Origin: Streptantibioticus rubrisoli
GTDB taxonomy: Bacteria; Actinomycetota; Actinomycetes; Streptomycetales; Streptomycetaceae
Reading direction: 5' to 3'
NCBI RefSeq assembly: GCF_024436055.1
Contig: NZ_JANFNH010000004.1
Span: 124,001-188,000, forward strand
Length of the DNA stretch: 64,000 bases
Positions 42,532-62,640 of this stretch are shown here, piece after piece. The notes under the pieces were generated by a model. It worked only from the letters and a program-made list of their open reading frames with translations, was not told the DNA's origin and made no database searches. The translations under genes were made by a program, and so were the position numbers. Position 1 is the first letter of the stretch, and the number at the start of each line of letters is the position of its first letter.

Positions 42532-43857
42532 ATGAAGAAAGTGCTCTTGACAACGGCGCCAAAAGAGGCGTTAGTCGAGCCGAACGGCGTCGGCGGAAAC
42601 TGGTACGACCGGACCGATACGTACATGGCGTGGACGTGCGCGGTCGATATCGAGGACCGGTTGTCCGTGACCTGCCCACCGACTGGTCTCCGCTTCCTCA
42701 AGCACAATGTGCCGGACATTGAGATTCTTGAGTACCCGACCTGGCAGGAATATCTGACGGCACTGCGGGCCGAAGCATGGGACATGGTGGGCATCAGCTT
42801 CTACACCTGGTCCACGCCGGTCGCGGTCGAGATGGCAAAAGCCGCACGAGAGGCTGGCGTAAAGGAGATCTGGGGCGGCAACTACGGTGTCCTCACACCC
42901 GGCATCGATCGTCACTTCACCAGACTGGTGAAAGGCGCCGGGGAGTCCCCGCTCCACCAGTACGTCTACGGCAAGCCGCTGCCACGGGTACGGCACCCGG
43001 CGATGATGGGGGTGAGCGGCTTCCGTGGTGTCAGCTCTCCGGTCGGATACCTGTACTCCAAACGCGGCTGCAACATCGGTTGCACTTTTTGCTCGACGCC
43101 GATCTTCAACCCCAAAGAAGAAGCCATCTTCATGGAGGACACGTACGCGGCACTCGACGCGTACCGGGATGCGAAGGTCGCACACGTCATCATCTACGAC
43201 GAGAGCTTCTTCCTCACCAACCACTTGGCCGAGCAGGTCGTGGACGCCCTGGCGGAGCGCGAACTGCCGTGGATCTGCCTGACCCGCGCGGATCTGATCC
43301 GCGGCCGGATCCCCGAGCTCACTGACCGCTATATGGACGGTGCGATCGTCGGCATCGAGTCCTACCGTGACAAGAACGTCGCCGATGTGAAGAAGCGCGA
43401 TGATGTCTACAACGTCAGGCAGACGGTCCGCGAGCTCATCGACAACGGACGCCGGGCGCTCGGCACGTTCATGGTCGGGTTCGCTGAGGACAGCATCGAG
43501 GACATGCAGTTCGACATCGAGCAGCTCAACCAGGAAGGGCTGTTCGCCTGCCAGTTGACACTACTGACGCCATTTCACCGCACCCGTCTCTACCGGCAGA
43601 TGGAGCATCTGATCGACGAGCCGGATCTCAGCAAGCATGATCTCTACAATCTGGTGTGGAAGCACCCGAAGATGAACCGCAGTGAAGCGCGGGATCTGCT
43701 CGCCTGGGGGCAGCGCCGGGTCAACGATCCGACCCGCATTGCCGCCAAACTCAAGCAGGAGATGAAGGAGAAGGTGCGCAAGCAGCTCGCGCACCGGCGC
43801 AATGCGGCGCAGTTCCACCCGTCCGGATCGTCGGCGCAGGCCGACGCGACCGTATGA
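42532..43857 (+). CDS. Radical SAM protein with B12-binding-like N-terminus (first)
   Basis: This 441-residue protein has an N-terminal Rossmann-like region (about 1-150; AWDMVGISFYTWSTPVAVEM, EIWGGNYGVLTP) like cobalamin-binding domains of class B radical SAM enzymes. The 4Fe-4S/SAM motif CNIGCTFC follows at C180, C184 and C187. VIIYDESFFLTN and GAIVGIESYRDKNV fit the barrel. A class B enzyme would typically methylate or rearrange an unactivated carbon. GAGGGGGACGG precedes the ATG. It is first in the cluster operon; the substrate is unknown. Confidence 0.82.
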   Translation: MKKVLLTTAPKEALVEPNGVGGNWYDRTDTYMAWTCAVDIEDRLSVTCPPTGLRFLKHNVPDIEILEYPTWQEYLTALRAEAWDMVGISFYTWSTPVAVEMAKAAREAGVKEIWGGNYGVLTPGIDRHFTRLVKGAGESPLHQYVYGKPLPRVRHPAMMGVSGFRGVSSPVGYLYSKRGCNIGCTFCSTPIFNPKEEAIFMEDTYAALDAYRDAKVAHVIIYDESFFLTNHLAEQVVDALAERELPWICLTRADLIRGRIPELTDRYMDGAIVGIESYRDKNVADVKKRDDVYNVRQTVRELIDNGRRALGTFMVGFAEDSIEDMQFDIEQLNQEGLFACQLTLLTPFHRTRLYRQMEHLIDEPDLSKHDLYNLVWKHPKMNRSEARDLLAWGQRRVNDPTRIAAKLKQEMKEKVRKQLAHRRNAAQFHPSGSSAQADATV

Positions 43858-43900: not shown

Positions 43901-45427
43901 GTGAAGAGTCTCAACATTCTCTGCGTTCAGCTCGGGTTCCACGAGGCCTACCCCGACGCATCGACGTTGGCGACCACCTACAACGACGGCATCTACTACG
44001 TCGCCTCGTTCGTCCAGCAGGAGTATCCGGACGCGAGAGTCGAGATGTGCCAGATGCTCTGGGGCGAGAAGCCCGAGGACTTTCCCCTGGCAAGCTACGA
44101 CTACATCCTGATCTCGGCACTCGCCACACACTTCTGGTCGAACATCGAGACGCTGGAGCTGATCCAACGCAACAAGCGTCCCGGCTGTGTGGTGATCACG
44201 GGCGGCCCGCATGCCGCGTTCGCGCCCTACGAGGCGCTACGCTACGCCGACTACGCGGTGATCGCCGAAGGAGAGATCCCGTCCGTCCAACTGATCAGGG
44301 CACTGGAGGCTGGGGAGCCCGTCACCGATGTCGACAACCTGGCCTACATCGGCGCCAACGGCGAGCTGAGGCTGAACAACGTCGCCCGCTATGGCAATAT
44401 CGCCAACGCGATCAACCCGAAGTTCTTGGCGCGGGCGCCGCAGCTCCATTGGGCAACGGTCTCGATGTCGCGTGGCTGCCCGTTCGACTGCTCGTTCTGT
44501 TACGCGGTCCGGCTGCTCGGGCGGCGGTTCCGGACCAAGACCGCACAGGACGTGCGCGACGAGTTGGACGCCATCTACCAGCAGACCGGCTGCAACCGGT
44601 TCTATGTCACGGATCTGAACTTCACCACGCGCAAGAGCTATTGCCGTGAGATCGCCGAGACGTTCCGTGACCGCGACTACAAGTTCATCGCGATGAGTCG
44701 GATCAACCATGCCGATGACATGGAGTTGGTCCTCGACCTCAAGCGGTCCGGGTTCGAGGAGTACTGCCTGGGCGTGGAGTCGGAGGATCCCAGTGTCCTT
44801 CGGGCGTTCAACAAGCGCGTCGATCCCTCAGAGCAGACCCGGCGCCTGCTGCGCTTCGCGGAGAACGACATAGCCATCCACTCGGCGATCATCTTCGGGC
44901 TGGAAGTCCAGGACCGCCGGGCGATCGAGGCCACCGCGTACTGGTGCGCCGAGGCACGGATCATGCACCCGGTTTTCGTGTGCCTCGCGGAATACCCGTT
45001 CCAGGATCTGCTGTACGGGGCCCGCCAGGATGTCGAAGACCACCGCATCATCATGGAAGTGCCCACTTATCAGCACTACTCGTTCGTCGGTATCTTCCCG
45101 CGCCACATGCGGCCCAGCGAACTGCAACGCGGCATCCTCGACAGCTACGGGATCTTCTTCAAGCGGGCGTTCGAGATCGAGCAGCGACCGCAGCGGCGGG
45201 CCCGCCTCAAGGCGTACTCACGCAGTGTCGAACGCGGCCGAGCCGGCATGGAGCGGCACATCCGCTTCCTGGAGGAGTTGGAGAGGCCCTATTACACGGC
45301 GTCCGGGACGCTGAAGGAGGACTTGTTGAAGGCCGACTTCGACTCGCGCTACGGCGAGCTCCGTACCTGGCTCTCGCGGTCCTCCAGGCGCACCGACCTG
45401 CAGTTCACGAAAGTGTACGCTCGATGA
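43901..45427 (+). CDS. Radical SAM protein with B12-binding domain (second)
   Basis: This 508-residue protein has a cobalamin-binding-like domain (about 1-150; YDYILISALATHFWSNIETLE, VITGGPHAAFAPYEALR) and the radical SAM motif CPFDCSFC at C193, C197 and C200. Barrel segments are FYVTDLNFTT, FEEYCLGVESEDPSVLRAFN and SAIIFGLEVQDR. A helical C-terminus of about 130 residues is less conserved. The GTG at 43901 has GAGGGGGAG upstream. Its stop overlaps the ligase ATG. It probably acts with the first radical SAM protein on a common substrate. Confidence 0.87.
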   Translation: MKSLNILCVQLGFHEAYPDASTLATTYNDGIYYVASFVQQEYPDARVEMCQMLWGEKPEDFPLASYDYILISALATHFWSNIETLELIQRNKRPGCVVITGGPHAAFAPYEALRYADYAVIAEGEIPSVQLIRALEAGEPVTDVDNLAYIGANGELRLNNVARYGNIANAINPKFLARAPQLHWATVSMSRGCPFDCSFCYAVRLLGRRFRTKTAQDVRDELDAIYQQTGCNRFYVTDLNFTTRKSYCREIAETFRDRDYKFIAMSRINHADDMELVLDLKRSGFEEYCLGVESEDPSVLRAFNKRVDPSEQTRRLLRFAENDIAIHSAIIFGLEVQDRRAIEATAYWCAEARIMHPVFVCLAEYPFQDLLYGARQDVEDHRIIMEVPTYQHYSFVGIFPRHMRPSELQRGILDSYGIFFKRAFEIEQRPQRRARLKAYSRSVERGRAGMERHIRFLEELERPYYTASGTLKEDLLKADFDSRYGELRTWLSRSSRRTDLQFTKVYAR

Positions 45428-47133
45428 CGGAGGCCCATCGATCGCAGACCATCATCGATGCGTTGCTCGACAGCGTGAGCCGTGCTCCGGACCGGTTGGC
45501 GTTCCGTGTGATCGAGCGGTCCGGGGAGGAGTTCGCACTCAGTTACGCGGACGTGTGCCACCTCGTCGGGCAGACCGTGGCCGGACTCAAGACGTGCGGG
45601 ATCGAGGAATCGGACCGCGTCGTCATCGTTCTGCCCACTTCGCGCGACTTCCTCTCCGTCTATCTTGGCTGCCTGTACGCCGGGATCGTGCCGATCGTCG
45701 TGGCGGAACCGATGGACGGACGTACCGCGCACTACGCGGCAAACCTGCGAAGACTCGCCGAACACGCCAAGGCCAGGCGGATCATCGTCCCCGCGGAACT
45801 GGCGGACTCGCTCACGCCGTTGCTGCCGATCCCGGTCACAACGCCGAGCGTCCTGCGCGGCGTACCACCGCGACTGAACTCGCCGCTCCCGACGCCGGAT
45901 TCGCTCGCCCATCTCCAGGCGACCTCCGGCTCGACCGGCGCACCGAAGCTGGCCGTGGTCCGGCACCGCAACATCACCGCCAACGTTCACGCGATCCGCG
46001 AAGCCATTCAGGGAAAGCCCGACGACGTGCTGGTGAGCTGGCTGCCCCTCTTTCACGACATGGGACTCATCGGCATCTCCTACGCGCTCCACGCCCGTAT
46101 TCCGATGGTGTTGTCGGATCCGGTGAACTTCCTGCGCAACCCGGTCTCGTGGCTGCAGTGGATCAGCCGCTACCGGGGCACCTTGTCGCCCGCACCGAGT
46201 TCGGCCTTCCACATGTGCGTGCGAGTCGCGCAGCGGCGCCCGCCTGGCGATCTCGACCTGTCGGCCTGGCGCGTCGCACTGTGTGGTGCGGAGCCGGTGC
46301 ACGAGAGCACCATGCGGGCCTTCCAGACGATGTTCGGCCGCTTCGGCCTGCCCGAGACAACTCTCCGGCCCGTGTACGGGCTGGCGGAGGCCACGCTCGC
46401 GGCCACCATCTCCGATGTCGGGCGGCCCTACTCGGTCGACCGGGTCGACGCGGAAGCCGCGGCGAGGGGACGAGCCGAGCCCCGCTCGGCCGCGGACCCG
46501 CGCACCACCAGCGTGATGTGCGTGGGACGGGTGCTGCCCGGCCACAGTCTGCGGGTGGTCGACGTTGACGGGGCGCCACTACCCGATCGCACGATCGGTG
46601 AGATAGAGGTGTCCGGCCCCAGCGTGATCGACGGCTATCTCCCAGAGCCTGACGAGGAGTTGGCCAGCACAGCCGATGACCAGCTCAAGCGTGCGGACGG
46701 GTATCTGCGCACGGGCGACCTCGGTTATCAGGTCGACGGCGAGCTGTATGTCACCGGACGGCGCAAGGACATCGTGATCGTCGCGGGCCGCAACTACGTG
46801 CCCAACCAACTTGAGTCGTTCGTGGAGGCCGTTACCGACAGTCCGCGGACACCAGCGGTCGTCGCGGTCGGTGTTCCCGATCCAACGCTGCGGACCGAGC
46901 AGCTCCATCTCCTGCTCGACACGCGGCTCGCGGACGGCCGTGACCGACGGGTCATCACCAACCAGGTGCGCGACGCACTCGCGGAGGTGTTCGGCATCGG
47001 CGGTGTCACCTTCCACTGGGTCAGCCGAGCCGAGCTTCCGCGAACCACAAGCGGCAAGATCCAGCGCCATCTGTGCCGGAAGATGATCGAAGAACGCCGC
47101 CGGACAACCGAGCTGGCGACTACGGGTGACTGA
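45424..47133 (+). CDS. Adenylate-forming acyl ligase (acyl-AMP/CoA ligase family)
   Basis: This 569-residue ANL enzyme activates a carboxylic acid as acyl-AMP, probably for transfer to the adjacent acyl carrier protein. Motifs are LQATSGSTGAPKLAVV (P-loop), VYGLAEATLAATI, RTGDLGYQVDGELYVTGRRKD and the catalytic Lys near TTSGKIQRHLCRK. Layout and motif spelling are closest to fatty-acyl-AMP ligases. The ATG overlaps the preceding stop by four bases and the carrier protein gene starts five bases after its stop, so the units are tightly coupled. Confidence 0.88.
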   Translation: MTEAHRSQTIIDALLDSVSRAPDRLAFRVIERSGEEFALSYADVCHLVGQTVAGLKTCGIEESDRVVIVLPTSRDFLSVYLGCLYAGIVPIVVAEPMDGRTAHYAANLRRLAEHAKARRIIVPAELADSLTPLLPIPVTTPSVLRGVPPRLNSPLPTPDSLAHLQATSGSTGAPKLAVVRHRNITANVHAIREAIQGKPDDVLVSWLPLFHDMGLIGISYALHARIPMVLSDPVNFLRNPVSWLQWISRYRGTLSPAPSSAFHMCVRVAQRRPPGDLDLSAWRVALCGAEPVHESTMRAFQTMFGRFGLPETTLRPVYGLAEATLAATISDVGRPYSVDRVDAEAAARGRAEPRSAADPRTTSVMCVGRVLPGHSLRVVDVDGAPLPDRTIGEIEVSGPSVIDGYLPEPDEELASTADDQLKRADGYLRTGDLGYQVDGELYVTGRRKDIVIVAGRNYVPNQLESFVEAVTDSPRTPAVVAVGVPDPTLRTEQLHLLLDTRLADGRDRRVITNQVRDALAEVFGIGGVTFHWVSRAELPRTTSGKIQRHLCRKMIEERRRTTELATTGD

Positions 47134-47138
47134 GAGGC

Positions 47139-47423
47139 ATGCACATGATCCAGGATCAGGACCGCGATCAGGAGCTGTTCGACAAGCTGGTGAAGCATAT
47201 CGGTGAGTTCATGGAAGCCGACGTTTCCTATCTCACTCCGGATGCGCATCTCGGCACGTCCATCGAGGGGATGAGTTCGCTCAAGATGGTCGAACTGCTT
47301 CTTTACCTGGAGGACTGCTTCGGGTTGGAGTTCGAGGAATCCGTTGTGGGAGGGCTTGAGAGGGTCCAGGATCTCGTGGACTACATACGAGACCTGCAGA
47401 ACGCGGGGCAACAACTGGCGTGA
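47139..47423 (+). CDS. Acyl carrier protein
   Basis: This 94-residue four-helix carrier has the phosphopantetheine site in EGMSSLKMVELLLYLED, where S47 precedes Leu as in the usual DSL motif (Asp is Ser here). The rest reads LVKHIGEFMEADVSYLTPDA and GGLERVQDLVDYIRDL. It likely tethers the acyl chain made by the ligase and ketosynthase. A GAGAGG site suits the third-codon ATG at 47145 better than the first ATG, so two residues may be absent. Confidence 0.9.
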   Translation: MHMIQDQDRDQELFDKLVKHIGEFMEADVSYLTPDAHLGTSIEGMSSLKMVELLLYLEDCFGLEFEESVVGGLERVQDLVDYIRDLQNAGQQLA

Positions 47424-47436
47424 CGCGGTCCGCACA

Positions 47437-48705
47437 GTGCGTCGACGCGGTGTGGTGGTCACCGGTATGGGTGTGGTCTGCTCTCTCGGTGCGACCGCCA
47501 ATGATCTGTGGCAGGGCCTCCTCGCCGGACGTTCGGGGATCGGTCCACTGACGCGCTTCGACACTTGCCGTTTCCGTAGCCGGTATGCCGCTCAGATCGA
47601 CGACACCCTTGTGACGTTCCCGCCAGGGCCTTTCCAGTTCGAGATCAAGCGAATGAGCGCGTTCGTGCGCTACGCGCTGTTCGCCGCCGATCGAGCACTG
47701 GAGGACAGCGGCCTGCCCTTGGCCACGGAGGACGACCGGCGCGCCGAAGAGTTGCCGCCGGATCACCCGTCGAGCGGGGCTGTCTTCCTTGGCGTGGCGA
47801 TGGGCGGCTTGCCCAGCATTGAGGCTGGTGTGCTCAGGCAGGAGCGGAAGGGGCCACGGAAGACCAGCCCGTTCCTGATTCCCTCCCTCATCCCCAACAT
47901 GGCGGCCAGTACGATCGCGTTGCGTCACAGGATCGACGGAGAACAGATGACGATCGCGGGCGCCTGCGCCAGCGGCTGCCAGGCATTGGGCCACGCCATG
48001 CGCGCGATCCAGTCCGGCGCCCGCTCATGGGCCCTCGCCGGAGGAGCCGAGGCGGTGACCACCCCGATCACCTACTCCGGCTTCGAGGCGATGAACGCGC
48101 TGAGCCGATGCGACGATCCGTCGACCACCCCCCGCCCGTTCGATCGTGCGCGAGACGGCATGATCGTCGGCGAGGCGGCAGCGGTGTTCGTGCTGGAGGA
48201 CCGCGCCCACGCCGAAGCACGCGGCGCGGTGGTGCACGGCGAACTGACCGGCTTCGCAACGAACAGCGGTTGCGATGACCTCACCGGTATCTCACCCCGC
48301 CATGCCGCCCGTTGCATGTCCAGCGCACTCGCCGACGCCGAGGTGGAACCGGACGCGACTGACTGCGTGTTCGCGCAGGCCTCTGGCATGGTCCAGGGTG
48401 ACGCCGCCGAAATCGAGGCAGTGCGGTACGTGTCGGCCGGTGGCCGCCGAAAGCCTGTCGTCACCTCGATCAAGGGGCACACGGGGTACGCGTTCGCCGC
48501 GAACGGGCCGATGAACCTCGCCAGCGCGCTCATGGCGCTTCGTCACCAAGTCGTGCCGCCGACCTCGAAACTCGAAGAAGCGGACCCGTCGTTCGCCGAC
48601 GTGGACATCGCCCGCGAAGCTCGGGTGACCGAGGTGCGCCATTGCCTGATCAACGCGTTCGGCTTCGGCGGTATCAACGCCAGCCTGGTCGTGTCGCGTG
48701 CGTAG
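47437..48705 (+). CDS. Beta-ketoacyl synthase (KAS II fold) with altered catalytic triad
   Basis: This 422-residue FabF-like ketosynthase starts MRRRGVVVTGMGVVCSLG. The nucleophile Cys is present (GACASGCQA, C177). The first catalytic His, normally in NAHGTSTPLGD, is Q314 (FAQASGMVQGD). The second, normally five residues after the conserved Lys in KSMTGH, is Y351 (K346 in KGHTGY). NAFGFGGINA is normal. The protein may transfer or decarboxylate acyl groups without normal Claisen chemistry, or serve as a partner subunit. The GTG at 47437 is 13 bases after the ACP stop. Confidence 0.88.
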   Translation: MRRRGVVVTGMGVVCSLGATANDLWQGLLAGRSGIGPLTRFDTCRFRSRYAAQIDDTLVTFPPGPFQFEIKRMSAFVRYALFAADRALEDSGLPLATEDDRRAEELPPDHPSSGAVFLGVAMGGLPSIEAGVLRQERKGPRKTSPFLIPSLIPNMAASTIALRHRIDGEQMTIAGACASGCQALGHAMRAIQSGARSWALAGGAEAVTTPITYSGFEAMNALSRCDDPSTTPRPFDRARDGMIVGEAAAVFVLEDRAHAEARGAVVHGELTGFATNSGCDDLTGISPRHAARCMSSALADAEVEPDATDCVFAQASGMVQGDAAEIEAVRYVSAGGRRKPVVTSIKGHTGYAFAANGPMNLASALMALRHQVVPPTSKLEEADPSFADVDIAREARVTEVRHCLINAFGFGGINASLVVSRA

Positions 48706-48736: not shown

Positions 48737-49180
48737 ATGGGGACTTCGTCGACGCACATCGAGAGGCTCACCCGCTGTTGCATGAAATGCAAGATCTCCC
48801 GGTTCCTCGACAAGACGATCACGATCGAGAAGGCCGGAGTCGCGCGGGTGGCCATTCCGTTCCATCCTGATCTCACCCAGAACTCGGACTTCCTGCACGC
48901 TGCCATGCTGTTCGAGGTCGCGGACACCGCCGGATTCATGGCGGCCAACTCGATGGAGGAAACCTACAGTGTGCTGACGGTCGACTATCACATCAACCTG
49001 ATCCGACCGGTGCAGAAAGAGGGGATCTACGCGACCGGTGAGGTGGTGACCGCGGGGAAGACCCTTTACGTCGCGCGGAGCGATGTGTACACCGACAGCG
49101 GCAGACTTGTGGCGGCCGGTCAGGGCACGTACACCGTGTCCAGGATTCCGCTCGCCGAACTCGACGGATACAACGACTGA
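48737..49180 (+). CDS. Hotdog-fold thioesterase-like protein
   Basis: This 147-residue single-hotdog protein of the PaaI/YiiD type has the helix segment LTQNSDFLHAAMLFEVADTA, with Asp as the likely active residue, followed by LTVDYHINLIRPVQKEG and YATGEVVTAGKTLYVARSDV. An N-terminal CCMKCK may be a metal or redox site and is unusual for the family. AAGGAG lies seven bases before the ATG. It may release the acyl chain from the carrier protein, or act as a dehydratase. Confidence 0.82.
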   Translation: MGTSSTHIERLTRCCMKCKISRFLDKTITIEKAGVARVAIPFHPDLTQNSDFLHAAMLFEVADTAGFMAANSMEETYSVLTVDYHINLIRPVQKEGIYATGEVVTAGKTLYVARSDVYTDSGRLVAAGQGTYTVSRIPLAELDGYND

Positions 49181-49333: not shown

Positions 49334-50116
49334 ATGATCGAGACAGCCGACCAGGACGGCGTCGCCATCCTGACTGTGCACCACGGACCGGTGAACGCGC
49401 TGGACCTTGAGCTGCTCACCGCCATTCCCGAGACCCTGGCCGCCGTCGCCGACGCCCGCGCCGTCGTGCTGACCGGCAGTGGGCGGTCCTTCTCGGCAGG
49501 TGTGGATCTGAAGCGGATAGTCGACGGCGGCCCGCGGTATGTCGAGAAGTTCCTGCCAGCGCTGAGCCTCGCCATGCTCACCTTGTTCGAGCATCCGAAG
49601 CCGGTCGTCGCCGCGGTGAACGGTCACGCCCTGGCCGGTGGATGCGTGCTGGCGGCGGCCTGTGACGTTCGGCTGATGTCGAGCGGCACCATTGGGCTTA
49701 CCGAGCTGGCAGCGGGTGTGCCGTTTCCGACGGTGCCCCTGGAGATCATGCGCCATGCCGTCGGCCCCGCGCTGGACGCGATGGTACTTCAGGCCAGCAG
49801 ACTGGCTCCCGGCCAGGCCGCCTCAATCGGCTTGGTGCACGAGCTGGTTGAGCCTGACCAACTGCTCGACGCGGCGCTGCGACGAGCGGAGGGACTGTGT
49901 GCCGCGGCACCGGAGGTGTACGCCCTCGCCAAGCGCCAGCTCCATCGGCCCGCGTGCGAGCGCATCGGTGTCGCCCGTCCCCTGGATGACGGCCAGGTAC
50001 TGGAGCTCTGGAGCTCCGAACGCACCAGCCACACCCTGCGTGACTACCTCGCGTCCCTGCGCCGGGGTCAGAGCCCGAACGAAGGGTCCTCGGTTGTGAG
50101 TCGCGGCGGTGCGTGA
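49334..50116 (+). CDS. Enoyl-CoA hydratase/isomerase family protein
   Basis: This 260-residue crotonase-fold protein has GRSFSAGVDLKRIVDGG (first oxyanion strand) and NGHALAGGCVLAAACDVRLM (second). TELAAGVPFPTVPLEIMRHA carries one Glu but lacks the usual PGxGGTQRL Glu segment, so chemistry other than simple hydration is possible (isomerisation, decarboxylation or a C-C cleavage). The start at 49334 (MIETADQDGV) lacks a strong ribosome site; GTG 49283 is an alternative. It ends the first cluster operon. Confidence 0.85.
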   Translation: MIETADQDGVAILTVHHGPVNALDLELLTAIPETLAAVADARAVVLTGSGRSFSAGVDLKRIVDGGPRYVEKFLPALSLAMLTLFEHPKPVVAAVNGHALAGGCVLAAACDVRLMSSGTIGLTELAAGVPFPTVPLEIMRHAVGPALDAMVLQASRLAPGQAASIGLVHELVEPDQLLDAALRRAEGLCAAAPEVYALAKRQLHRPACERIGVARPLDDGQVLELWSSERTSHTLRDYLASLRRGQSPNEGSSVVSRGGA

Positions 50117-50705: not shown

Positions 50706-51377
50706 ATGACGGTCGTAAGGACCGACACGCAGGACATTGAGCTCGACCCCATCGAGGAGGCCGTCGCTGACATCGCGGCAGGCCGCCCGGTCATCGTGGT
50801 GGACGACGAGGACCGGGAGAACGAGGGGGACCTTGTTTTCGCGGCCAGCAAGGCGACATCGGAACTGTTGGCGTTCATGATCCGCCACACCAGTGGCGTC
50901 ATCTGCGTGCCCATGCTGGGCGATGACCTGGACCGGCTCAAACTGCCTCCGATGACGGAGGTCAACGAGTGCCGACTCGGCACGGCGTTCGCCGTCTCGG
51001 TCGACGCGCGGACCGGGGTCTCCACCGGAATCTCGGCGGCGGACCGGACACGCACCATTCAGCTGCTGGCCGATCCCGCCACCGGGCCGCAGGATCTCGC
51101 GCGCCCAGGCCATCTGTTCCCGCTGCGGGCGGTCGAGGGCGGCGTGCTGGACCGCCGGGGACACACCGAGGCGGCGGTCGACCTCGCGCGGCTCGCCGGT
51201 CTGCCGCCGGTCGGGGTGCTGTGCGAACTCACCAACGACGACGGGACGATGATGCGGCTGCCGCACTGCCGCGCCTTCGCCCGCGAGCACGGGCTCAAGC
51301 TCATCAGCATCGACGACCTGAGCAACCATCTGGAGGCCCGTGGCCTCGCACTGGCATCCTCGGGGGCCGTGCACTGA
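50706..51377 (+). CDS. ribB: 3,4-Dihydroxy-2-butanone-4-phosphate synthase
   Basis: This 223-residue stand-alone RibB converts ribulose 5-phosphate to 3,4-dihydroxy-2-butanone 4-phosphate plus formate, the four-carbon branch of riboflavin synthesis. Motifs are [15 protein letters not shown] (Mg-binding acids), [20 protein letters not shown] and [20 protein letters not shown], followed by [14 protein letters not shown] riboswitch controls it. It is not fused to a GTP cyclohydrolase II domain; a separate ribA lies 10 kb away in the same cluster. Confidence 0.94.
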
Positions 51378-51443
51378 CGCCACGCGCCGTTGTGGCCGTC
51401 GTCCCCGCGCGGACGGCGGCCACAAAGCGCTGGTCGGTCAGGC

Positions 51444-52481
51444 TCAGGGCAGGTAGCTGTCGCTGAAGGCCTGGTCAGTCGAGACCGGGTGGCTCAGCAG
51501 TCCCTGCTGCTTCATGAACTCGGCCATCCGGGCCCATGTCGCGGGATCGTTGTATCCGAGCTTCCCACTCCCGGTGCGTACCAGCGGAATGGTCGCCTTC
51601 AACACGCTCAAGGCCGCAGCCTGTTGCTCGGGATCCTGTAGGTCCGGCACGTACTTCTCGCTGAGTTGAACGGCTTCCTGCGGGTTGTCGATGGTCTCCT
51701 GGACACCGCGCATGGTGGCTGCCAGGAACTTCTTGATCTGTGCGCCGCGGTTCTGCAACGTGGTTCGCGTCGCACCGAGCCCGGAGCCGACGAGCGGCGG
51801 CTGTTGGCCGCCGTCGGTCGCCGTGACAGCACGGACCGGGATGTGCGCCTGGTCGAACTGGACCGCGTCGTTGTTGACGAAGCCCATCACGCCGTCCACC
51901 TTCTTGCCCGCCAGAGCGGCCTGTTGGGTGAACCCGATGTACTTCACCTTGACGTCCTTGGTGCTCAGATTGGCCGACCGCAGCAGCGCGAGCAGCCCGA
52001 AGTACGTCTCACCGTAGGGACCCGGGGTGCCCAGGACGTGGCCGCGCAGGTCATTGGCGGAGTGGATGGCGGAGTCCGTGGGAACGAGGAGGGCGACGGG
52101 GTACTTCTGGTAGAGGGTGGCGACATCCACGATCGGCTTGGACTGCGCCTGGGCCTGCATCATCTCGTCGCCGCCCGCGTAGACCACGTCCTCACGGCCG
52201 GAGTTGAGCGCGCCGAAGAGGTCCTCCGAGGCACTGTGGTGGCGCAGGTCCACCTTCAGCCCGGCTTGCTGGTAGTAGCCCTTCTCCTCCGCCACGTAGA
52301 ACGGGGCGAACTGGATGTTGGGGATGTAGGTGAGCCCGACCGTCAACTGCTGGCTGTTCTTGCCGCCCGAACCGCCTGCGGTCGGGTCCTTGGCGCATCC
52401 GGTCAGTGCTGAACCGGCGAGCAGCGCGGCAACCGCCAGTCCCGTGATGGCGCGCAGTCTTCGCGAACCGTTGCGTAGCAT
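51444..52481 (-). CDS. NMT1/THI5-like substrate-binding lipoprotein
   Basis: This 345-residue lipoprotein has a signal with lipobox AGSALTGC and an NMT1-type periplasmic-binding fold (LTVGLTYIPNIQFAPFYVAEEK, EDLFGALNSGREDVVYAGGDEMMQA, LRGHVLGTPGPYGETYFGLL). Relatives bind HMP thiamine precursors, taurine or riboflavin. Its position next to ribB and a permease suggests a RibXY-like riboflavin or precursor importer; this is inferred. ATG 52481 is used; GTG 52520 is upstream. Confidence 0.82.
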   Translation of the reverse strand: MLRNGSRRLRAITGLAVAALLAGSALTGCAKDPTAGGSGGKNSQQLTVGLTYIPNIQFAPFYVAEEKGYYQQAGLKVDLRHHSASEDLFGALNSGREDVVYAGGDEMMQAQAQSKPIVDVATLYQKYPVALLVPTDSAIHSANDLRGHVLGTPGPYGETYFGLLALLRSANLSTKDVKVKYIGFTQQAALAGKKVDGVMGFVNNDAVQFDQAHIPVRAVTATDGGQQPPLVGSGLGATRTTLQNRGAQIKKFLAATMRGVQETIDNPQEAVQLSEKYVPDLQDPEQQAAALSVLKATIPLVRTGSGKLGYNDPATWARMAEFMKQQGLLSHPVSTDQAFSDSYLP

Positions 52482-52543
52482 CTTCGTAATCCGTTTCGTT
52501 GACTTCTTCGGCTTCGGCACGCCGGGTGTCCGACGGGCATCGG

Positions 52544-53347
52544 CTAACGCTGTGCGCGCTCCTCCATCAGGCGCATCAGCCCGTACGCGCAGACGGCCAG
52601 CAGGGCGAGCGTGAACAGCGTGACGAACAGCCCGACGGAATCCGCCTCGTTGCGCTGCACGGCGAGCAACTGCCCCAACCCGTCCCCGCCCATGACGAAT
52701 TCACCGACGACGGCACCGGTGATCGACAGGGTGAATCCGGCTCGGACACCGGTCAGGATGCTGGGCAGGGCGAGCGGGATCTCGATGTAGCGGATCATGC
52801 CCCACCGGGTGACACCGTCGACCCGCGCGGCGTTCAGCACGTCCACGTCCAGCGACCGCAACCCCAGAACGGTGTTGACCAGCATCGGGAAGAAGACCAG
52901 CAGGGCGCACAGGACGGCGATGGGCAGCAGGCCGTAGCCGAGCCACAGGGCCAGCAGCGGCGCGAGCGCCACGGCGGGCACCGCCTGGGAGGCGGCGATG
53001 TAGGGCTGGAGGGCTCTGGCCGCCCATTCGCCGCGGGCCACGAAGTACCCGACGGGCAGTGCGACCGCGATGCCGAGGCCGCTGCCCGCCGCACTCTCCA
53101 GCACCGTCTGCCAGGTGTAGTCGAGCAGCGAACCGTGCCACAGCGCGTTGCCGAAGGCCTTCACCACGGAGCCGGGGGGCGGCAGGAAGAAGGCCGAGAC
53201 GGCACCGGTGCTGGACGCGACCTCCCAGGCCAACAGGAGGAACGCGCCCAACACGGTGGGCGGTAGCAGTGCCTTGAGCCGCCGGGTCAGCCCACCCGCC
53301 GGTGCGGCTCGCGGGGACGTTGCGCGGGGCAGGGGCTCGGCGGTCAT
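52544..53347 (-). CDS. ABC transporter permease (SsuC/RibX type)
   Basis: This 267-residue permease has about six membrane helices and the BPD-transport EAA loop near LRSLDVDVLNAARVDGVTRW. ILTGVRAGFTLSITGAVVGEFVMG is typical of nitrate/taurine/thiamine-precursor uptake systems. It lies 62 bases upstream of the binding-protein gene on the same strand. No ATPase is encoded nearby, so it must borrow one or be non-functional. The ATG at 53347 overlaps the oxidoreductase stop by four bases. Confidence 0.86.
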   Translation of the reverse strand: MTAEPLPRATSPRAAPAGGLTRRLKALLPPTVLGAFLLLAWEVASSTGAVSAFFLPPPGSVVKAFGNALWHGSLLDYTWQTVLESAAGSGLGIAVALPVGYFVARGEWAARALQPYIAASQAVPAVALAPLLALWLGYGLLPIAVLCALLVFFPMLVNTVLGLRSLDVDVLNAARVDGVTRWGMIRYIEIPLALPSILTGVRAGFTLSITGAVVGEFVMGGDGLGQLLAVQRNEADSVGLFVTLFTLALLAVCAYGLMRLMEERAQR

Positions 53348-54150
53348 CCGGAGCCCAGCGACTCTCGCAGGTCCACCAGTCGGCGCACCGGCGCCAGCTC
53401 ATAGGGCGCTGGCAGGGACAGGATGATGTGCGTGGCGCCAGCCGCGGCGAATGACGGCAACTGGTCGAGTTGCGGAACGTCGATCATCACGGTCCGCTCC
53501 ACCGCGCCGGGGTCACGCCCCACGCGCTCGCACCAGTCGTCCAGCAGGCCGCTGCGGTGGCGGAACTCGGCCACCGGGTCCGGGGAGTTCCAGCCGTACC
53601 AGTTCCAGATGTCGGCGTGCCGGGCCACCACACTCAGCGTGCGCTTCTCACCACCGCCGCCGATCAGCAGCGGCAGCGGGCCGCGCGGTGGCGGGTTGAG
53701 TCGTGCCAGCCGGTCGCGTACCGCGGTGACCGCCTCTTCGAACGCGTCGAGGCGGCCTGTGGCGGACGGGAACGGGAAGCCGTACTCACGGTGCTCCGCC
53801 TCGAACCAGCCGGCCCCGAGGCCGAGCACCAGCCGACCGCCGCTGAGCCGGTCGACGGTACGGGCCATGTCGGCGAGCAGATGGGGATTGCGGAAGGCGG
53901 TGCAGGATACGAGCGGCCCGATCAGGGCGTGCTCGGTCTCCACCGCCATGGCGGCCAGCAGCGACCAGCATTCGAAGTGCGGCCCCTGCGGGTCGCCGTG
54001 GTGGGGGAGGAAGTGGTCCCAGGTCCATAGCGAATCGACGCCGACGGTATCGACCGCGCGCCAGGCGTCGCGCAGCTCGTCGAGTTCGCAGTGCTGGGGA
54101 TGGAGTTGGACGCCGACGCGCAGACGGCGACGGGAGTGCGGTACGGGCAT
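53344..54150 (-). CDS. Luciferase-like (LLM) flavin/F420-dependent oxidoreductase
   Basis: This 268-residue TIM-barrel protein has segments SLWTWDHFLPHHGDPQGPHFE, GPLVSCTAFRNPHLLADMARTVDRLSGGR (reported in two parts) and LVLGLGAGWFEAEHREYGFPF, plus LPLLIGGGGEKRTL. These fit the LLM family, whose members use F420 or FMN. The reaction is unknown. It overlaps the permease start and is the first gene of a unit with the transporter genes. Flavin use would fit the riboflavin genes nearby. Confidence 0.87.
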   Translation of the reverse strand: MPVPHSRRRLRVGVQLHPQHCELDELRDAWRAVDTVGVDSLWTWDHFLPHHGDPQGPHFECWSLLAAMAVETEHALIGPLVSCTAFRNPHLLADMARTVDRLSGGRLVLGLGAGWFEAEHREYGFPFPSATGRLDAFEEAVTAVRDRLARLNPPPRGPLPLLIGGGGEKRTLSVVARHADIWNWYGWNSPDPVAEFRHRSGLLDDWCERVGRDPGAVERTVMIDVPQLDQLPSFAAAGATHIILSLPAPYELAPVRRLVDLRESLGSG

Positions 54151-54210
54151 GGACGCGAATCTCCTGAATGAGCAGCCGGGGCGGGGCGGAGGGAGGAGCG
54201 GGGTGCGAAC

Positions 54211-55230
54211 TCAGTGAGCGCCCACGTATACCCGGAAGGCCTGGCCGCCGCACACCTCTTCCAGTGCCTGGTGGGCGTCCGCCAGCGGGTAGCGTCCGCT
54301 GACCAGTTGGTCGAGCTGGTTCGCCAGCGCTTTGCCGCGCAGGAGTTGGGCCGCGACGCGCCAGTCCTCGGGTTCCTGGCTGTAGGAGCCGGTGATGGTG
54401 AGCTGACGGCGGTGGATCTCGTATCCGGGAAGCGTCGCGGGCAGCGCGTCGGGTGAACCACCGAAGAGCACGATCCGGCCGCCGTCCGCGACGGCGCTCA
54501 GCGCAGTGGTGATGGCGGCGCTTGAGGCGATGGTGACGAAAACCGTGTCGGCACGCGGTAGTTCCTTCACCGCCTCGGGGGCGACGGCCCCGCTGGCGCC
54601 CGCTGCCCGGGCCAGCTCCCGGCGGCGCTCGTCGGTTTCCACCACGGCCACCGAACGCGCCTGGAGGTGGAGTGCCAGGGCGAGGTGGAGCCGCCCCATG
54701 TATCCGGCACCGATGATGGTGACCCGGTCGCCGGTGCGGAACGCCGCACGGCGCAGTGAGTGGACGACGCACGCCAGCGGCTCCGCCATCGCGGCGTGCA
54801 CCGGGGAGGCGTCCCCGACCGGCCATACCTGCGAGGCTGGCACGCGTACGTACTCGGCCAGTCCGGCCCCCATGGTGATGGTCCCGTCCGGGAGGCTGCC
54901 GCCCTGCGGAGACTCGCAGACGGCGCTGTCACCACGGCGGCAGCTGCGACAGGCGCCACAGCGGGTGAGCAGGTCGGCGGTGACCAAGTCCCCGACCTCG
55001 GGGGCGTCTTCGAGTGCGGCGGCGTGCTCACCGACGCGTTCGACCCGGCCGGAGACCTCGTGTCCGGCCGCTACCGGATAGACCGGCATGGCACCGGCGA
55101 AGAGCTTGGCCTCCATCGTGCACAGCCCACAGGCCTCGACGCGGATGAGCACGTCGTCGTCTCCGCACGGGGGAACAGGGGTGTCTCGCAACTCGACCTC
55201 TCCGGGAGAGGTGACAACCGCTATTCGCAT
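54211..55230 (-). CDS. Zinc-binding alcohol dehydrogenase family protein
   Basis: This 339-residue medium-chain dehydrogenase has catalytic zinc ligands in CGLCTMEAK (Cys), GHEVSG (His) and the structural zinc set CGACRSCRRGDSAVC. The NAD(P) Rossmann motif reads VTIIGAGYMGRLHLALALHL, followed by RSVAVVETDERRREL. It likely oxidises or reduces an alcohol or polyol intermediate. ATG 55230 follows GAAGGAATC; five codons of an upstream ATG are possible. It lies 60 bases before the LLM gene on the same strand. Confidence 0.9.
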   Translation of the reverse strand: MRIAVVTSPGEVELRDTPVPPCGDDDVLIRVEACGLCTMEAKLFAGAMPVYPVAAGHEVSGRVERVGEHAAALEDAPEVGDLVTADLLTRCGACRSCRRGDSAVCESPQGGSLPDGTITMGAGLAEYVRVPASQVWPVGDASPVHAAMAEPLACVVHSLRRAAFRTGDRVTIIGAGYMGRLHLALALHLQARSVAVVETDERRRELARAAGASGAVAPEAVKELPRADTVFVTIASSAAITTALSAVADGGRIVLFGGSPDALPATLPGYEIHRRQLTITGSYSQEPEDWRVAAQLLRGKALANQLDQLVSGRYPLADAHQALEEVCGGQAFRVYVGAH

Positions 55231-55491
55231 TGACGATTCCTTCACAGCTTCGGCAGTCGGACAGCGGTCGCAGCAACCGGCGGCGTTAACAGAAGGGCCG
55301 TGCGCACTGAAGTTCCCCCTTGTTGTCGTATCAGCTCAACTCCACTGGCCACCAGCGGAGTTGGTATTCGGTGCGGCTGGTGAATCGGCGTTGCGCGAAG
55401 TACGTCCTGCAACGTAAACCACTGCTCGTAGCCGCGCAATGAGGAAAAGTGGTGACGCCAGGTAAGTGGAATTCTTAATTCCGGAATCGGT

Positions 55492-56787
55492 TCAGCGGGG
55501 CCCTTCCGGGCTTTGGAAGTCGGGGACCGACCGGGCCACGGCGGGCGCCTCGGCCGACTCCAGCCGAGCTGAACGTACCATCAGGCACGCGGCGGCCGTG
55601 GCCGTCGCGGAGGCAGCCAGCAGCGACCAGGTCCAGCCGGGCGAGGTGTGGGTGAGCAAGGCGACACCGACAGCGGGTCCCGCCGTCGAGCCCACGTTGG
55701 AGGCCAGCGAGGTGATCGCGGAGGCGCGGCCGAGCAGATGGCGGGGTACGGCCTTCATCAGCAGTGGGTAGAACGAACAGGCGTAGGCGGTCTCCCCCGC
55801 CGCGAAGAGCGCCGCGAAGACGGCCAGTGCCGCCGCCAGGGCCGTCCCGCTCAGCAGCACCGAGAGCGCCCCGCAGCAGTAGGCCGCCACCCAGCACGAC
55901 GGGGCGAGCAGCAGCGCTGTGGCCTGTGGCCACCGCCTCAGCCGGGGCACCAGCAGGCGTTGCAGCACCACCACCGCCACCGTGTTGACCACCACGATCC
56001 CGCTGAGGAGGTACAGGCTTCCGGGAGCGGACCGGCGCACCAGCAACGGCACCGAACTCTCGAACTGGGCGTAGCCGAAGAGCATGGCTCCGCACTGCAC
56101 GGCCGCCATGCCGAGCACCGCCCGCGAACCCAGGACGGCAAGGTAGCCGGAGGCTGCCGGGGCGGGCGCCGCGGGTGCCCCGGGCGTCGCAGGCACCCTG
56201 GACGCTGGGGGCGCGTTGGGTGGCAAGTCGCCTTCCGCCGCGCGCCGTTGGCCCGTGCGCAGCAGCGTCAGCGCCAACGGGACGAACGTCAGGGCGTCCA
56301 GCACGTACAGCAGCCGGTATCCGTGGACGCCGTGTCCCCCGGCGACGAAGAGGGCACCCGCGCCAGCTCCGAGTCCGGCCCCGACGTTCATCGCCGTGTA
56401 GCGCAGTGAGAACGCCCTCTGCCGCTCGCTCTCCACTGTCACGGCCCCGATGGTCGGCGCCAACGCGGGGTAGAAGAGGGCGTTCCCGGCCCCCACCAGG
56501 GCGGCGCAGACCAGCACCACGGCCCAACCGTCCGCAGCGGCCAGCAACAGGTAGCCGCTCGCCGTGAGCAGCACGCCCGTCGCCGCAGCCGCTCCGGGGC
56601 GCCGCAGATCCGCCAACCGGCCCCCGAGCGGGGTGAGGACGAAGCTGGTCAGGGCGATGGCGCCGAAGTACCGCCCGGCCCAGGGGAGTCCCAGCCCGAG
56701 CTGTTCGGAGACGTACACCGCGGTGAGGGGGAGCACGGCTCCGTTGCCGAAGCTGGATAATCCGAAAGACACGAGCAGGACGCGCAC
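55492..56787 (-). CDS. MFS exporter
   Basis: This 431-residue, 12-helix major facilitator protein starts with the GTG at 56787 (AGGAGGAG upstream). The first-loop motif is GGRLADLRRPGAAAATG, with RYTAMNVGAGLGAGAGA in helix 5. A long polar loop (about residues 180-220) separates the halves. It resembles drug exporters and probably exports or gives resistance to the cluster product. A short hairpin (GGAATT-CTT-AATTCC, 55468-55482) lies just past the stop. Confidence 0.88.
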   Translation of the reverse strand: MRVLLVSFGLSSFGNGAVLPLTAVYVSEQLGLGLPWAGRYFGAIALTSFVLTPLGGRLADLRRPGAAAATGVLLTASGYLLLAAADGWAVVLVCAALVGAGNALFYPALAPTIGAVTVESERQRAFSLRYTAMNVGAGLGAGAGALFVAGGHGVHGYRLLYVLDALTFVPLALTLLRTGQRRAAEGDLPPNAPPASRVPATPGAPAAPAPAASGYLAVLGSRAVLGMAAVQCGAMLFGYAQFESSVPLLVRRSAPGSLYLLSGIVVVNTVAVVVLQRLLVPRLRRWPQATALLLAPSCWVAAYCCGALSVLLSGTALAAALAVFAALFAAGETAYACSFYPLLMKAVPRHLLGRASAITSLASNVGSTAGPAVGVALLTHTSPGWTWSLLAASATATAAACLMVRSARLESAEAPAVARSVPDFQSPEGPR

Positions 56788-56970
56788 ACGCTCCTCCTGA
56801 GCAGACGACGGCCAGCGGCGTGACTGGACGTCTGAACACGTCGTACCGGGCTAGGCTTGGGGCCAAGCTTCGCACACCCGTCTGCCGGCCAGTCGGCGCC
56901 CGGCCGACCAGCACGGTGCCGACGGTGCCGACCAACACAGTGATGTCGGCCAGCGAGGAGGGGGAGGGCC

Positions 56971-58119
56971 ATGGGTGTCTCGGCGACCCCGGACCTGGCG
57001 ATCCGCCGGGTTTCCGGTGTGAGATCACTGGATGACGCGCAATGGCGCCGGTTGGCGTTAGCCGACAGGGACTTCTACGCCAGCCCGAAGTGGCTGGCCG
57101 CGCAGGAGGAGTTCAGCGGCCGACCGCAGCACATGCTGGTCGCCGTCGAGAACGACGAAGTGGTGGCCGTGATGCCGTACTCGGCTCCTGACCACGAGTT
57201 CAACCAGTACTACGAGCCCCGCGCGCTGTGGGGTGACGGCGCCCCGGCGGCGAGCGGCCTGCTCCACCTCGGTGTCGGCCGGGGCTACTACAACCGCGTG
57301 CTGATGACCGGCGCCCAGGGCGGGGAGCGTACCGCCGTGACGGTCGCGCTCGCGGCCGAGTCGGACCGGCTGGCGCGGGAGACCGGCCGGTCAGTGGTGG
57401 CCCAGTACCTCCGCGAGGAGGAGGTCGACGAGGTCGTCACGCTGCTCGGTGGCGGGGCGGTGACCGTGGTGCCGGTAGCGCTCAACGCGGTGATCAGGTT
57501 GACCGGTGGGAACTTCGACGACTACCTCAACGGATTCGGGGCCCGTAAGTCCCGGCGCGGGCAGATAAGACATGAGCGCCGCGTGTTCGCCGAGGCCGGA
57601 TACCAGCTGGGGCAGGAGTCGTTATGGGACTGCCATCGCGAACTGGCGCCGCTGGCGGTGCAGTTGCAGCACCGACACGGGCAGAGCGCCTCGGTGGAGG
57701 CGACCGAGCGGCTGCTGGCGTCCCAGGCGAACCACCTTGACGGCGTGGTCTTCACCTGTCGGCTCGGCCGGAATCTGGTGGCCTTCGCGCTGGCCTACCC
57801 ATGGCATGACGCGCTCTACGTGCGCATGGCGGGGTTCGACTACCCGCGGCTGGTGGGCGCCTTCGAATACTTCAACCTCACCACGTATCTGCCGATCGAC
57901 TACGCCTACCGCAACGGACTGCGCGAGATCCACCTCGGCATGGAGAGCTACCGTGGCAAGCTGCTGCGGCGCGCCGAACTCGAACCGCTGGTGACCGTCT
58001 TCGCGGCGGGGTCGGTCCCGGACCCGGACCGGTTGCGCGCCATGGCGTGGCAGCGCGTGCGTACGTGGGAGGACCAAGTCCCGGACCCGGCGGGCCTGTT
58101 CCGGCCGCGAGGAGGCTGA
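56971..58119 (+). CDS. FemAB/GNAT-like acyltransferase (Acetyltransf_6 type)
   Basis: This 382-residue protein has the two-domain GNAT layout of peptidoglycan-bridge FemAB-like and BioF2-like transferases: SGRPQHMLVAVENDEVVAVM in the first half, NGFGARKSRRGQIRHERRVF around residue 190, GVVFTCRLGRNLVAFALAYP, and LTTYLPIDYAYRNGLREIHLG near the end. Such proteins often form amide bonds using acyl donors or aminoacyl-tRNA. The stop is six bases before the ATP-grasp TTG start, so the two enzymes probably act on one substrate. Confidence 0.82.
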   Translation: MGVSATPDLAIRRVSGVRSLDDAQWRRLALADRDFYASPKWLAAQEEFSGRPQHMLVAVENDEVVAVMPYSAPDHEFNQYYEPRALWGDGAPAASGLLHLGVGRGYYNRVLMTGAQGGERTAVTVALAAESDRLARETGRSVVAQYLREEEVDEVVTLLGGGAVTVVPVALNAVIRLTGGNFDDYLNGFGARKSRRGQIRHERRVFAEAGYQLGQESLWDCHRELAPLAVQLQHRHGQSASVEATERLLASQANHLDGVVFTCRLGRNLVAFALAYPWHDALYVRMAGFDYPRLVGAFEYFNLTTYLPIDYAYRNGLREIHLGMESYRGKLLRRAELEPLVTVFAAGSVPDPDRLRAMAWQRVRTWEDQVPDPAGLFRPRGG

Positions 58120-58124
58120 TCACC

Positions 58125-59345
58125 TTGGCGAACGGCGCCAGACTGCTGGTGCTCGGGGCGGGGAACCAGCGCGAGCGGTCCTTCCACCGCTGGGCCGCCG
58201 ACGGGCTACGGGTGACCCTCGTGGACGGCTTCTCCCACTCGCGCTACGACCACGTGGTGGAGCGCGCGGTTCCGTGGGACGTCCGCGACAGCGCGGTACC
58301 GGACCTGGACGCTCTGGCCGCGCTCGCCGCTGAACACCAGGGGGTCACCACACTCTCCGACGACTGCCAGATCACCACCGCGCTCGTCGCGGAACGGCTG
58401 GGGTGGCCGTCCGCCGGGGTGCCAGCCGCACGGCTGGCCCGGGACAAGAGCAGGCAACGCCTGGTCGCGGCCGAGCACGGACTGCCGACCGTGGCACACC
58501 ACGCGGCCGGCGACCCGCGCGCGGTGGCCGAATTCGTCGAGGGGCGCGGGGGCCCCTGCGTGGTCAAGCCAGTGGGCGCGGGCGGCTCCGCGTCGGTGGC
58601 CAAAGTGGTGGGCGGCGAGCAGGCGCTCGTCGCGTGCGAGGTGATGCTCCAGCGCGGCCACCGGCTCTTCCTGGCCGAGGACTTCCTCATCGGGCCCGAG
58701 ATCAGCTACGAGGGCGTGGTACGTGCCGGACGTCTGGTGCGGGCCTCGGTCACGGAGAAGGAAGTGGTGTCGGACGGCTGCTTCCTGGAGCGCCAGCACC
58801 TGGTCACCGCCCCCGGACCGCTGGACGAGCCGGAAGCACATCGCGGCGTCCACGCCCTGGCCGGTGGCCTGGTCCGTGCCTTCGGTGTTGCCGACGCCGT
58901 CATCCACCTGGAAGCCAAACTCACCGGCCAGGGACCCGTTCCGGTGGAGATGGCGGTGCGCCCGGCCGGGGACTGCATCCCCGAACTGGTCGAACGCACC
59001 CACGGCCGGGACCTCTACGGCCACTTGGCCGCGTTGGCGCTGGGCCGACCGGCGCCGCCCGACCTGCCGACCGACGCGGACGCCTCGGTCGCGGGGGTGC
59101 GCTTCTGCGTCGGCCGGGGCCGGGTCACCGGTTACGCCCGGCCCGCCGATGTCCTGCGAGGTCTGGAGACGGTACGCATCGCGGTGCAGTCCGGCCAGGT
59201 GGGGCGGTGGTACGGCGAGCCAGCGGGCAACTGGGACAGGGTCGGCTATGTGCTGGGGTGGGGTGCGGACCGTTCGATTGTGGAGAAGGAGTTGGCGATC
59301 GCCTGCGACCGCCAACTCTCCCTTGCCGGGCTGTCAGATGGATGA
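58125..59345 (+). CDS. ATP-grasp ligase (first)
   Basis: This 406-residue ATP-grasp enzyme has an N-terminal Rossmann-like domain (ARLLVLGAGNQRERSFHRWA), a central ATP-binding region (CVVKPVGAGGSASVAKV, RLFLAEDFLIGPEISYEGVV) and the metal-ligand region PVPVEMAVRPAGDCIPELV. Such enzymes join a carboxylate to an amine or thiol via an acyl phosphate. The start is TTG at 58125, chosen because GGAGG lies nine bases upstream; no ATG or GTG fits as well. It is translationally linked to the FemAB-like gene. Confidence 0.88.
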   Translation: MANGARLLVLGAGNQRERSFHRWAADGLRVTLVDGFSHSRYDHVVERAVPWDVRDSAVPDLDALAALAAEHQGVTTLSDDCQITTALVAERLGWPSAGVPAARLARDKSRQRLVAAEHGLPTVAHHAAGDPRAVAEFVEGRGGPCVVKPVGAGGSASVAKVVGGEQALVACEVMLQRGHRLFLAEDFLIGPEISYEGVVRAGRLVRASVTEKEVVSDGCFLERQHLVTAPGPLDEPEAHRGVHALAGGLVRAFGVADAVIHLEAKLTGQGPVPVEMAVRPAGDCIPELVERTHGRDLYGHLAALALGRPAPPDLPTDADASVAGVRFCVGRGRVTGYARPADVLRGLETVRIAVQSGQVGRWYGEPAGNWDRVGYVLGWGADRSIVEKELAIACDRQLSLAGLSDG

Positions 59346-59377
59346 ACGACCCGGCCCGGACCTTCCGTTGCCTGCCC

Positions 59378-60193: not shown

Positions 60194-60215
60194 GGCGGGC
60201 GTCCAGCCTGACCCG

Positions 60216-61603: not shown

Positions 61604-61604
61604 C

Positions 61605-62234: not shown

Positions 62235-62640
62235 GGTTCCCCCATGGGTGTGAAGAGGTCGCGGCCAGGCAAGGGCTGTTGCGTCTGTTGGCGGGGCCTG
62301 ACTCCCGGATCGTCAGCCGACATCGGCTCGTGGCCGCGTGAAAACTCGTCGTACGGACAACACCGTTGATTCACGCTACAAAAGACACGCGCTCCGCTGA
62401 ACACCGATGAGAAGCATGACCCGAACATGTCGTTGGCATATGGATCCTTATGCTTAGGATCTGGTGCAATTCGCTTGACAGTGGCATTTACCAGGCCCCG
62501 CTGGGGAGTTGCTTCGGCCATTGTCGACTGAGCCCGATGGGCCCCTCGCCGTTGGCGCGGTGGACGTCCTCACGGTCGTGGCACCGTCATGTCAGCGTCG
62601 TTACTACACCGTCGTTACCTACACCCAGGAGGCAGAGGCA
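62235..62640. other. 406-base divergent intergenic region
   Basis: This spacer between ribA (left, minus) and the second ATP-grasp gene (right, plus) is more AT-rich than its surroundings. It includes TTGACA at 62475-62480 on the plus strand, but I see no good -10 at the right distance. No FMN riboswitch core is present, so ribA is not under the same control as ribB. No gene is evident. Confidence 0.5.

Follow-up and report, generated by a model that had tools for sequence, protein, structure and literature searches.

What does a FabF-like ketosynthase do once both of its catalytic histidines have been exchanged and its nucleophilic cysteine has been kept? The question is raised by a gene, denoted KSqy, in a 64,000-nt stretch of the Streptantibioticus rubrisoli genome, the whole of which we refer to as the window. 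KSqy encodes 422 amino acids from a GTG start codon, 13 nt past the stop codon of an ACP gene (Table 1). The protein matches the Pfam families PF00109 (1.3e-46) and PF02801 (1.6e-21), and it scores 345.6 bits, below the cut-off of 493.75, against the NCBIfam fabF equivalog TIGR03150.

Table 1. Genes of the KSqy locus, in window coordinates
Gene	Position	Strand	Description	Basis
rSAM1	42532..43857	+	Radical SAM protein, CxxxCxxC in sequence	PF04055 7.3e-12
rSAM2	43901..45427	+	B12-binding radical SAM protein	PF02310 + PF04055
FAAL	45424..47133	+	Fatty acyl-AMP ligase-like adenylating enzyme	PF00501 5.3e-61
ACP	47139..47423	+	ACP with GMSSLK motif	PF00550 1.4e-5
KSqy	47437..48705	+	Predicted FabF-fold ketosynthase with Cys177, Gln314, Lys346, Tyr351, Asn360	Pfam, NCBIfam, alignments, predicted fold
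TE	48737..49180	+	PaaI-type hotdog thioesterase, 8/8 loci	TIGR00369 63.0 bits, above cut-off 36.6
ECH	49334..50116	+	Crotonase-family protein, start codon inferred, 4/8 cassettes	PF00378 2.8e-35
RibB	50706-51377		Downstream of the cassette	

Active-site positions were assigned from alignments of a profile of five orthologs with solved FabF chains. These place C177 at the nucleophilic Cys, Q314 at the first catalytic His, K346 at the Lys and Y351 at the second catalytic His, and the stretch from Q314 to Y351 is gapless in both alignments shown (Thermus thermophilus 1j3n and Escherichia coli 6okg). The original prediction, that the nucleophile is kept and both histidines are replaced, is therefore borne out, and it holds in all eight KSqy orthologs that we collected. 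H348, which that prediction had named as a histidine that might take a catalytic position after all, aligns with a Met of E. coli FabF and is Asn in one of the eight orthologs (L012, Actinocrinis puniceicyclus), and we rejected it as a stand-in; His is found at this position in just three of 35 FabF-like rows from IMG/VR. Two further replacements had gone unnoticed in the earlier reading: the positions of FabB Thr302 and Glu342, which we took as active-site positions from PMC2649909, are Met318 and Asn360 in every ortholog (8/8). The residues C177, Q314, S316, M318, K346, Y351 and N360 are all invariant across the eight sequences, which also retain F410, D236, R239 and E246 along with K346 and C177; the GFGG loop is kept in KSqy.

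We compared this residue set with 83 distinct other ketosynthases (35 rows from IMG/VR and 56 rows from the tree set described below, with eight IMG/VR rows common to both) and found it in none of them. In all 35 IMG/VR FabF-like rows, both catalytic positions are His and the third is Glu. Of the 56 tree-set rows other than KSqy, 54 are C-H-K-H and two are chain-length factors, with C-Q-K-Y-N in 0/56. Loss of the Glu is by itself a weak criterion and not diagnostic, because five of the 54 C-H-K-H rows also have no Glu there. On these alignments we regard the His replacements in KSqy as confirmed, that is, as real and fixed rather than a chance oddity. Because both His, the Glu and the Thr are all gone, we strongly infer that KSqy would not carry out malonyl-ACP decarboxylation of any known type, and the loss of decarboxylative condensation put forward in the original prediction appears well supported by the same four replacements. 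Assignment as a KSQ-type decarboxylase was rejected since KSqy keeps Cys177; in KSQ-type enzymes Gln replaces the Cys.

The overall fold appears to be intact. An AlphaFold2 model built from a 40-row alignment, which adds 35 IMG/VR FabF-like sequences to the orthologs, reached a pLDDT of 91.6 and a pTM of 0.94; a model from the five-ortholog alignment alone (pLDDT 54.4) was not used. In a Foldseek search, the 50 matches listed out of 1,164 were all of KAS II type and nearly all FabF, with TM scores to the query of 0.89–0.93 and identities of 30%–38% among the matches listed. The best VIA-align match was Streptococcus pneumoniae FabF (Z 61.9, rmsd 1.5, 403 residues aligned). KSqy is thus predicted to have the FabF fold. 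Among the 50 VIA-align matches listed was also 2byz, by its title an E. coli KAS I H298Q mutant with a C12 fatty acid. We count this structure in favor of acyl transfer, because its His-to-Gln change is the change seen at Q314 and, going by the title, an acyl chain is bound.

The IMG/VR sequences come from putative viral contigs (L055-L105) that carry FabF-like proteins ∼24%–28% identical to KSqy, and these are possible viral fatty-acid genes. The 13 viral-contig proteins that we aligned are all Cys-His-Lys-His, and a scan of the viral contigs with the FabF of the window's own genome (L015) gave no match.

The original prediction had offered several roles for the altered protein, among them that of a chain-length partner, and had proposed a phylogeny as one check. 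We built a maximum-likelihood tree of 64 rows (eight KSqy and 56 others), with the root drawn at the midpoint only. The eight KSqy sequences group in a single clade (100/100) with a stem length of 1.19 changes per column and fall outside both the 14-row clade taken as KS-alpha (100/99) and the 40-row clade of the remaining C-H-K-H rows (95/88); the placement is unsure because the stem is long and the root is a midpoint. The two chain-length factors form a clade of their own (100/100), apart from KSqy, and are the only two that the tree held. A chain-length-factor-like subunit, which would pair with the host FabF as a heterodimer, is to our mind very improbable. The VFAxA and TGx wording at the two His sites does resemble that of chain-length factors from the same genome (L017, L019), but the Cys is kept in all eight KSqy proteins rather than replaced by Gln or Glu, tblastn against the seven other loci gave no second ketosynthase match, the contig of the window had no other match either, and the two groups separate in the tree. 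Of the roles first suggested, the chain-length partner is not supported and acyl transfer is the one that we favor.

The main clue to KSqy lies in its neighbors, a conserved radical SAM/FAAL/ACP/TE cassette that the earlier reading had not seen. Six genes in the order rSAM1, rSAM2, FAAL-like, ACP, KSqy and hotdog TE are contiguous in eight out of eight loci, namely, the window and seven others that remained after same-genome duplicates were dropped (L002 of L012; L024 and L147 of L011). Four of the seven, from Streptomyces orinoci (L009), S. cupreus (L010), S. macrolidinus (L011) and A. puniceicyclus (L012), hold KSqy orthologs detected by an exact short-pattern scan, which provides a lower bound; three further genomes (L028, L029 and L030) were reached through rSAM2, with L028 coming from a plasmid of S. 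camelliae. Cassette genes are tightly packed, the start of the FAAL gene overlapping the stop of rSAM2. None of the six contiguous genes is FabD-, KR-, DH- or ER-like in any of the eight loci. Mean pairwise identity across the loci is 0.89 for rSAM1, 0.88 for rSAM2, 0.82 for TE, 0.74 for KSqy, 0.73 for FAAL and 0.67 for ACP, and the lowest pairwise values of the two radical SAM proteins are 0.84 (rSAM1) and 0.85 (rSAM2).

Family assignments within the cassette are of uneven precision. Pfam reported no B12 domain in rSAM1. The best NCBIfam matches of rSAM2 are BchE, rSAM_ladder_B12 and HpnJ, all sub-threshold, and that of the FAAL-like protein is the fatty acyl-AMP ligase model PRK09192 (367.6 bits, short of the 600 cut-off). 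All eight ACPs carry GMSSLK, and the phosphopantetheine Ser is presumed kept. The crotonase-family gene follows the cassette in half of the loci (the window, L009, L010 and L029); the other four (L011, L012, L028 and L030) had no match to it in the stretch read and have a second, different hotdog thioesterase nearby (∼5 kb further in L028). Two local observations stand apart from this pattern. In S. orinoci the FAAL-like gene (L009:8010-9689) has an in-frame stop, owing to an assembly error or decay, and the other five core genes are open. In S. macrolidinus a protein with a bacterial protein-arginine deiminase (PAD) domain is encoded directly downstream of the cassette (L011:12561-14564).

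The KSqy gene itself is under purifying selection, with dN/dS values of 0.13, 0.34, 0.26 and 0.23 in four pairs. We give almost no credence to the idea of a decaying pseudo-enzyme without function. It would fit the lost catalytic residues and the interrupted FAAL-like gene in one of the eight cassettes, but it sits poorly with these dN/dS values and with a KSqy reading frame that is open, and substitutions that are invariant, in eight of eight loci.

The cassette is rare. At E<=1e-60, rSAM2 was found in two of 394 genomes of the family (the window and G287, which is S. macrolidinus) and in four of 392 in the Streptomyces genus group to which G287 belongs; at 1e-40 it was found in one of 396 genomes of the phylum, the window itself; and KSqy at 1e-70 was found in three of 391 genomes of the order, each of the three carrying the cassette, these genome samples being overlapping draws from larger groups. 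A plasmid search returned one of 72,556 records. The S. camelliae cassette is located on a 273,284-bp linear plasmid, NZ_CP115301.1 (L155: 121454-128066), of the non-mobilizable type in PLSDB, and genes annotated as phenazine-type lie ∼15 kb downstream of the cassette on this plasmid. In the literature searched, which had partial coverage and few subscription papers, we found no description of the six-gene cassette.

We also read the flanks, ∼5 to 9 kb per side in the seven other loci, running Pfam on selected flanking genes. The flanks are mutually unrelated, except for a LysR/MFS pair common to L009 and L011 and for genes common to the window and L028; we disregarded two weak ABC-transporter similarities (∼30%). 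Downstream of the cassette, the window carries, besides RibB, a pair of transporter proteins sharing 57% and 72% identity with the substrate-binding protein and RibX of S. camelliae, a FemAB-like GNAT, two ATP-grasp proteins, a methyltransferase, BKACE and RibA, with a gamma-glutamyltransferase (GGT) and RibC just beyond the window end. This flavin-type set (RibA, RibB, RibC and a RibX/RibY-like transporter, together with the GNAT, ATP-grasps, GGT, BKACE and methyltransferase) extends over positions 50706-63939 and on into L158:115-2230, and is possibly an undescribed flavin-related cluster. The same set surrounds the cassette in S. camelliae NZ_CP115301.1, where RosB and RosC are annotated. 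Another genome, G172, has the GNAT, both ATP-grasps, the methyltransferase, BKACE, RibA and GGT. Searches run without a positive control found rSAM1 in 0/1 (G172) and RosB in 0/1 (the window's genome). The flanks of the other six loci (∼5 to 9 kb a side) lack the flavin/ATP-grasp set, save for a weak ATP-grasp match in L010 (26%, 2.3e-7), and we accordingly rejected these genes as part of the cassette. Because they adjoin it in only two of eight loci (the window and S. camelliae), we treat them as a separate set and make no use of them for the mechanism.

KSqy is conserved and functional-looking, and it probably belongs to an uncharacterized radical SAM lipid cassette. We lean toward its being a stand-alone, non-elongating, acyl-transferring ketosynthase, similar to the KS0 type, whose substrate would be a fatty acyl chain carried by the ACP and modified by radical chemistry. 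Going by its family, the FAAL-like enzyme would adenylate a free fatty acid and load it onto the ACP, and the two radical SAM proteins would then alter the ACP-bound chain. KSqy, in which the Cys, gate, Lys and docking residues are kept, would dock the acyl-ACP and take the chain onto Cys177, and might then hand it over to an acceptor with a thiol, amine or alcohol group, or return it to the ACP; the hotdog thioesterase would release or proof-read. In favor of acyl transfer, KSqy retains the Cys, the Lys, the GFGG gate and some of the ACP-docking patch, purifying selection acts on its gene, and HtmA1 KS3 offers a transacylase precedent.

The docking patch gives a mixed picture. FabF–AcpP contacts include Lys65, Arg68, Lys69, Arg127, Lys128, Arg206 and Thr270 (PMC7138838). 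The equivalents of Arg68/Lys69 and of Lys128 are basic in eight of eight KSqy proteins, that of Arg127 is Arg in seven and His in one, that of Thr270 is Thr in 7/8, and that of Arg206 is basic in 5/8 (Asn in the window protein). Against docking of an acyl-ACP, the Lys65 equivalent is Phe in all eight proteins, and the loop-2 Asp265/His268 pattern is not kept. Acyl transfer also has to contend with a conserved cassette that encodes one ACP and no acceptor, and with a FAAL-like enzyme that already supplies loading.

The same single ACP and lack of an acceptor would suit a scaffold or chaperone, in which KSqy would have no turnover, and its dimer and acyl tunnel would bind the acyl-ACP, keeping the chain protected for the two radical SAM enzymes or presenting it to them. 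The replacement of both His, the Glu and the Thr agrees with such a role, as does the fact that no protein of the cassette is better conserved than rSAM1 and rSAM2 (mean identity 0.89 and 0.88 vs. 0.74 for KSqy). However, the invariance of Cys177, Lys346 and the GFGG-loop residue Phe410 in all eight orthologs is unexpected in a pure binding protein, and we consider the scaffold fairly unlikely. A second alternative starts from the replacements themselves, since the fixed Gln, Tyr and Asn could serve other chemistry. Cys177 with Gln314 and Tyr351 might run a different thioester reaction on the radical-modified chain, such as ring closure, release or formation of a C-C bond without decarboxylation. 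Gln, Tyr and Asn are fixed in 8/8 orthologs and not drifting after the long stem (1.19 changes per column), but the set is without precedent among the 83 other ketosynthases compared, and we judge altered chemistry unlikely. Taken as a whole, the original interpretation is partly supported, and transfer of an acyl chain by KSqy is the reading with which we turn to known systems.

Compared with FabF (KAS II), KSqy shares the predicted fold, the Cys, the Lys, the GFGG loop and part of the ACP-docking patch, and differs in that the two His, the Glu and the Thr of the decarboxylation site are all replaced. The cispentacin pathway has a type II PKS-like pair, AmcF-AmcG, in which a ketosynthase-family protein likewise works alongside an adenylating enzyme and an ACP, all encoded in one small cluster (PMC10698177). 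Unlike KSqy, AmcF has a partner, AmcG, and condenses and cyclizes, and none of the seven proteins in the reconstituted pathway is a radical SAM enzyme (PMC10698177). KSqy scores 158.5 bits against the AmcF model NF058662 (cut-off 325), and an AmcF-type assignment was rejected because AmcF is a condensing enzyme with a partner (PMC10698177).

A closer functional parallel is the KS0 of trans-AT polyketide synthases, defined in PMC8456789 and PMC6855096 as keeping the Cys and having lost the catalytic His, and acting as a transacylase without elongation. In hangtaimycin biosynthesis, HtmA1 KS3 has Cys-Asn-His and is described as a transacylase springboard, and its C155A mutation abolishes the product (PMC8456789). 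KSqy also keeps the Cys without a catalytic His. The analogy is weakened by HtmA1 KS3 lacking one His (PMC8456789) and KSqy both, along with the Glu and the Thr. Moreover, KS0s are domains of modular proteins, whereas KSqy is a single 422-aa FabF-like protein in a FAAL/radical SAM cassette. As a putatively non-condensing, single-domain ketosynthase that has retained its Cys while its decarboxylation site was replaced, KSqy would allow the ketosynthase residues needed for acyl transfer to be told cleanly from those needed for condensation. With its six genes, the cassette is compact enough for expression as a whole, and a fatty-acyl product formed by radical chemistry is predicted from it.

A likeness in both residues and neighborhood is seen with the ladderane fatty-acid clusters of anammox bacteria. 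According to PMC2649909, the FabB/F paralogues Kuste3606, Kuste2805 and Kuste3348 have both His and the Glu substituted, and the clusters encode radical SAM enzymes as well, one of which has a B12-binding domain. KSqy is likewise without both His and the Glu and is encoded near radical SAM genes, and its Lys346 is kept, as is the Lys in two of the three paralogues (PMC2649909). In contrast to KSqy, the ladderane-cluster proteins have Val, Phe or Ser in place of the Cys, carry replacements other than Gln, Tyr and Asn, and come from an anammox host (PMC2649909). One speculative and rather improbable extension would see in the cassette an actinobacterial lipid pathway not described before, equivalent to the ladderane clusters except that the Cys is kept. 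Here the radical SAM pair would build a ring or bridge skeleton in the FAAL-loaded acyl chain while KSqy held or relayed it with a dedicated Gln-Tyr-Asn site. The occurrence of His-less FabF paralogues near radical SAM genes, both here and in the anammox clusters, suggests a common role.
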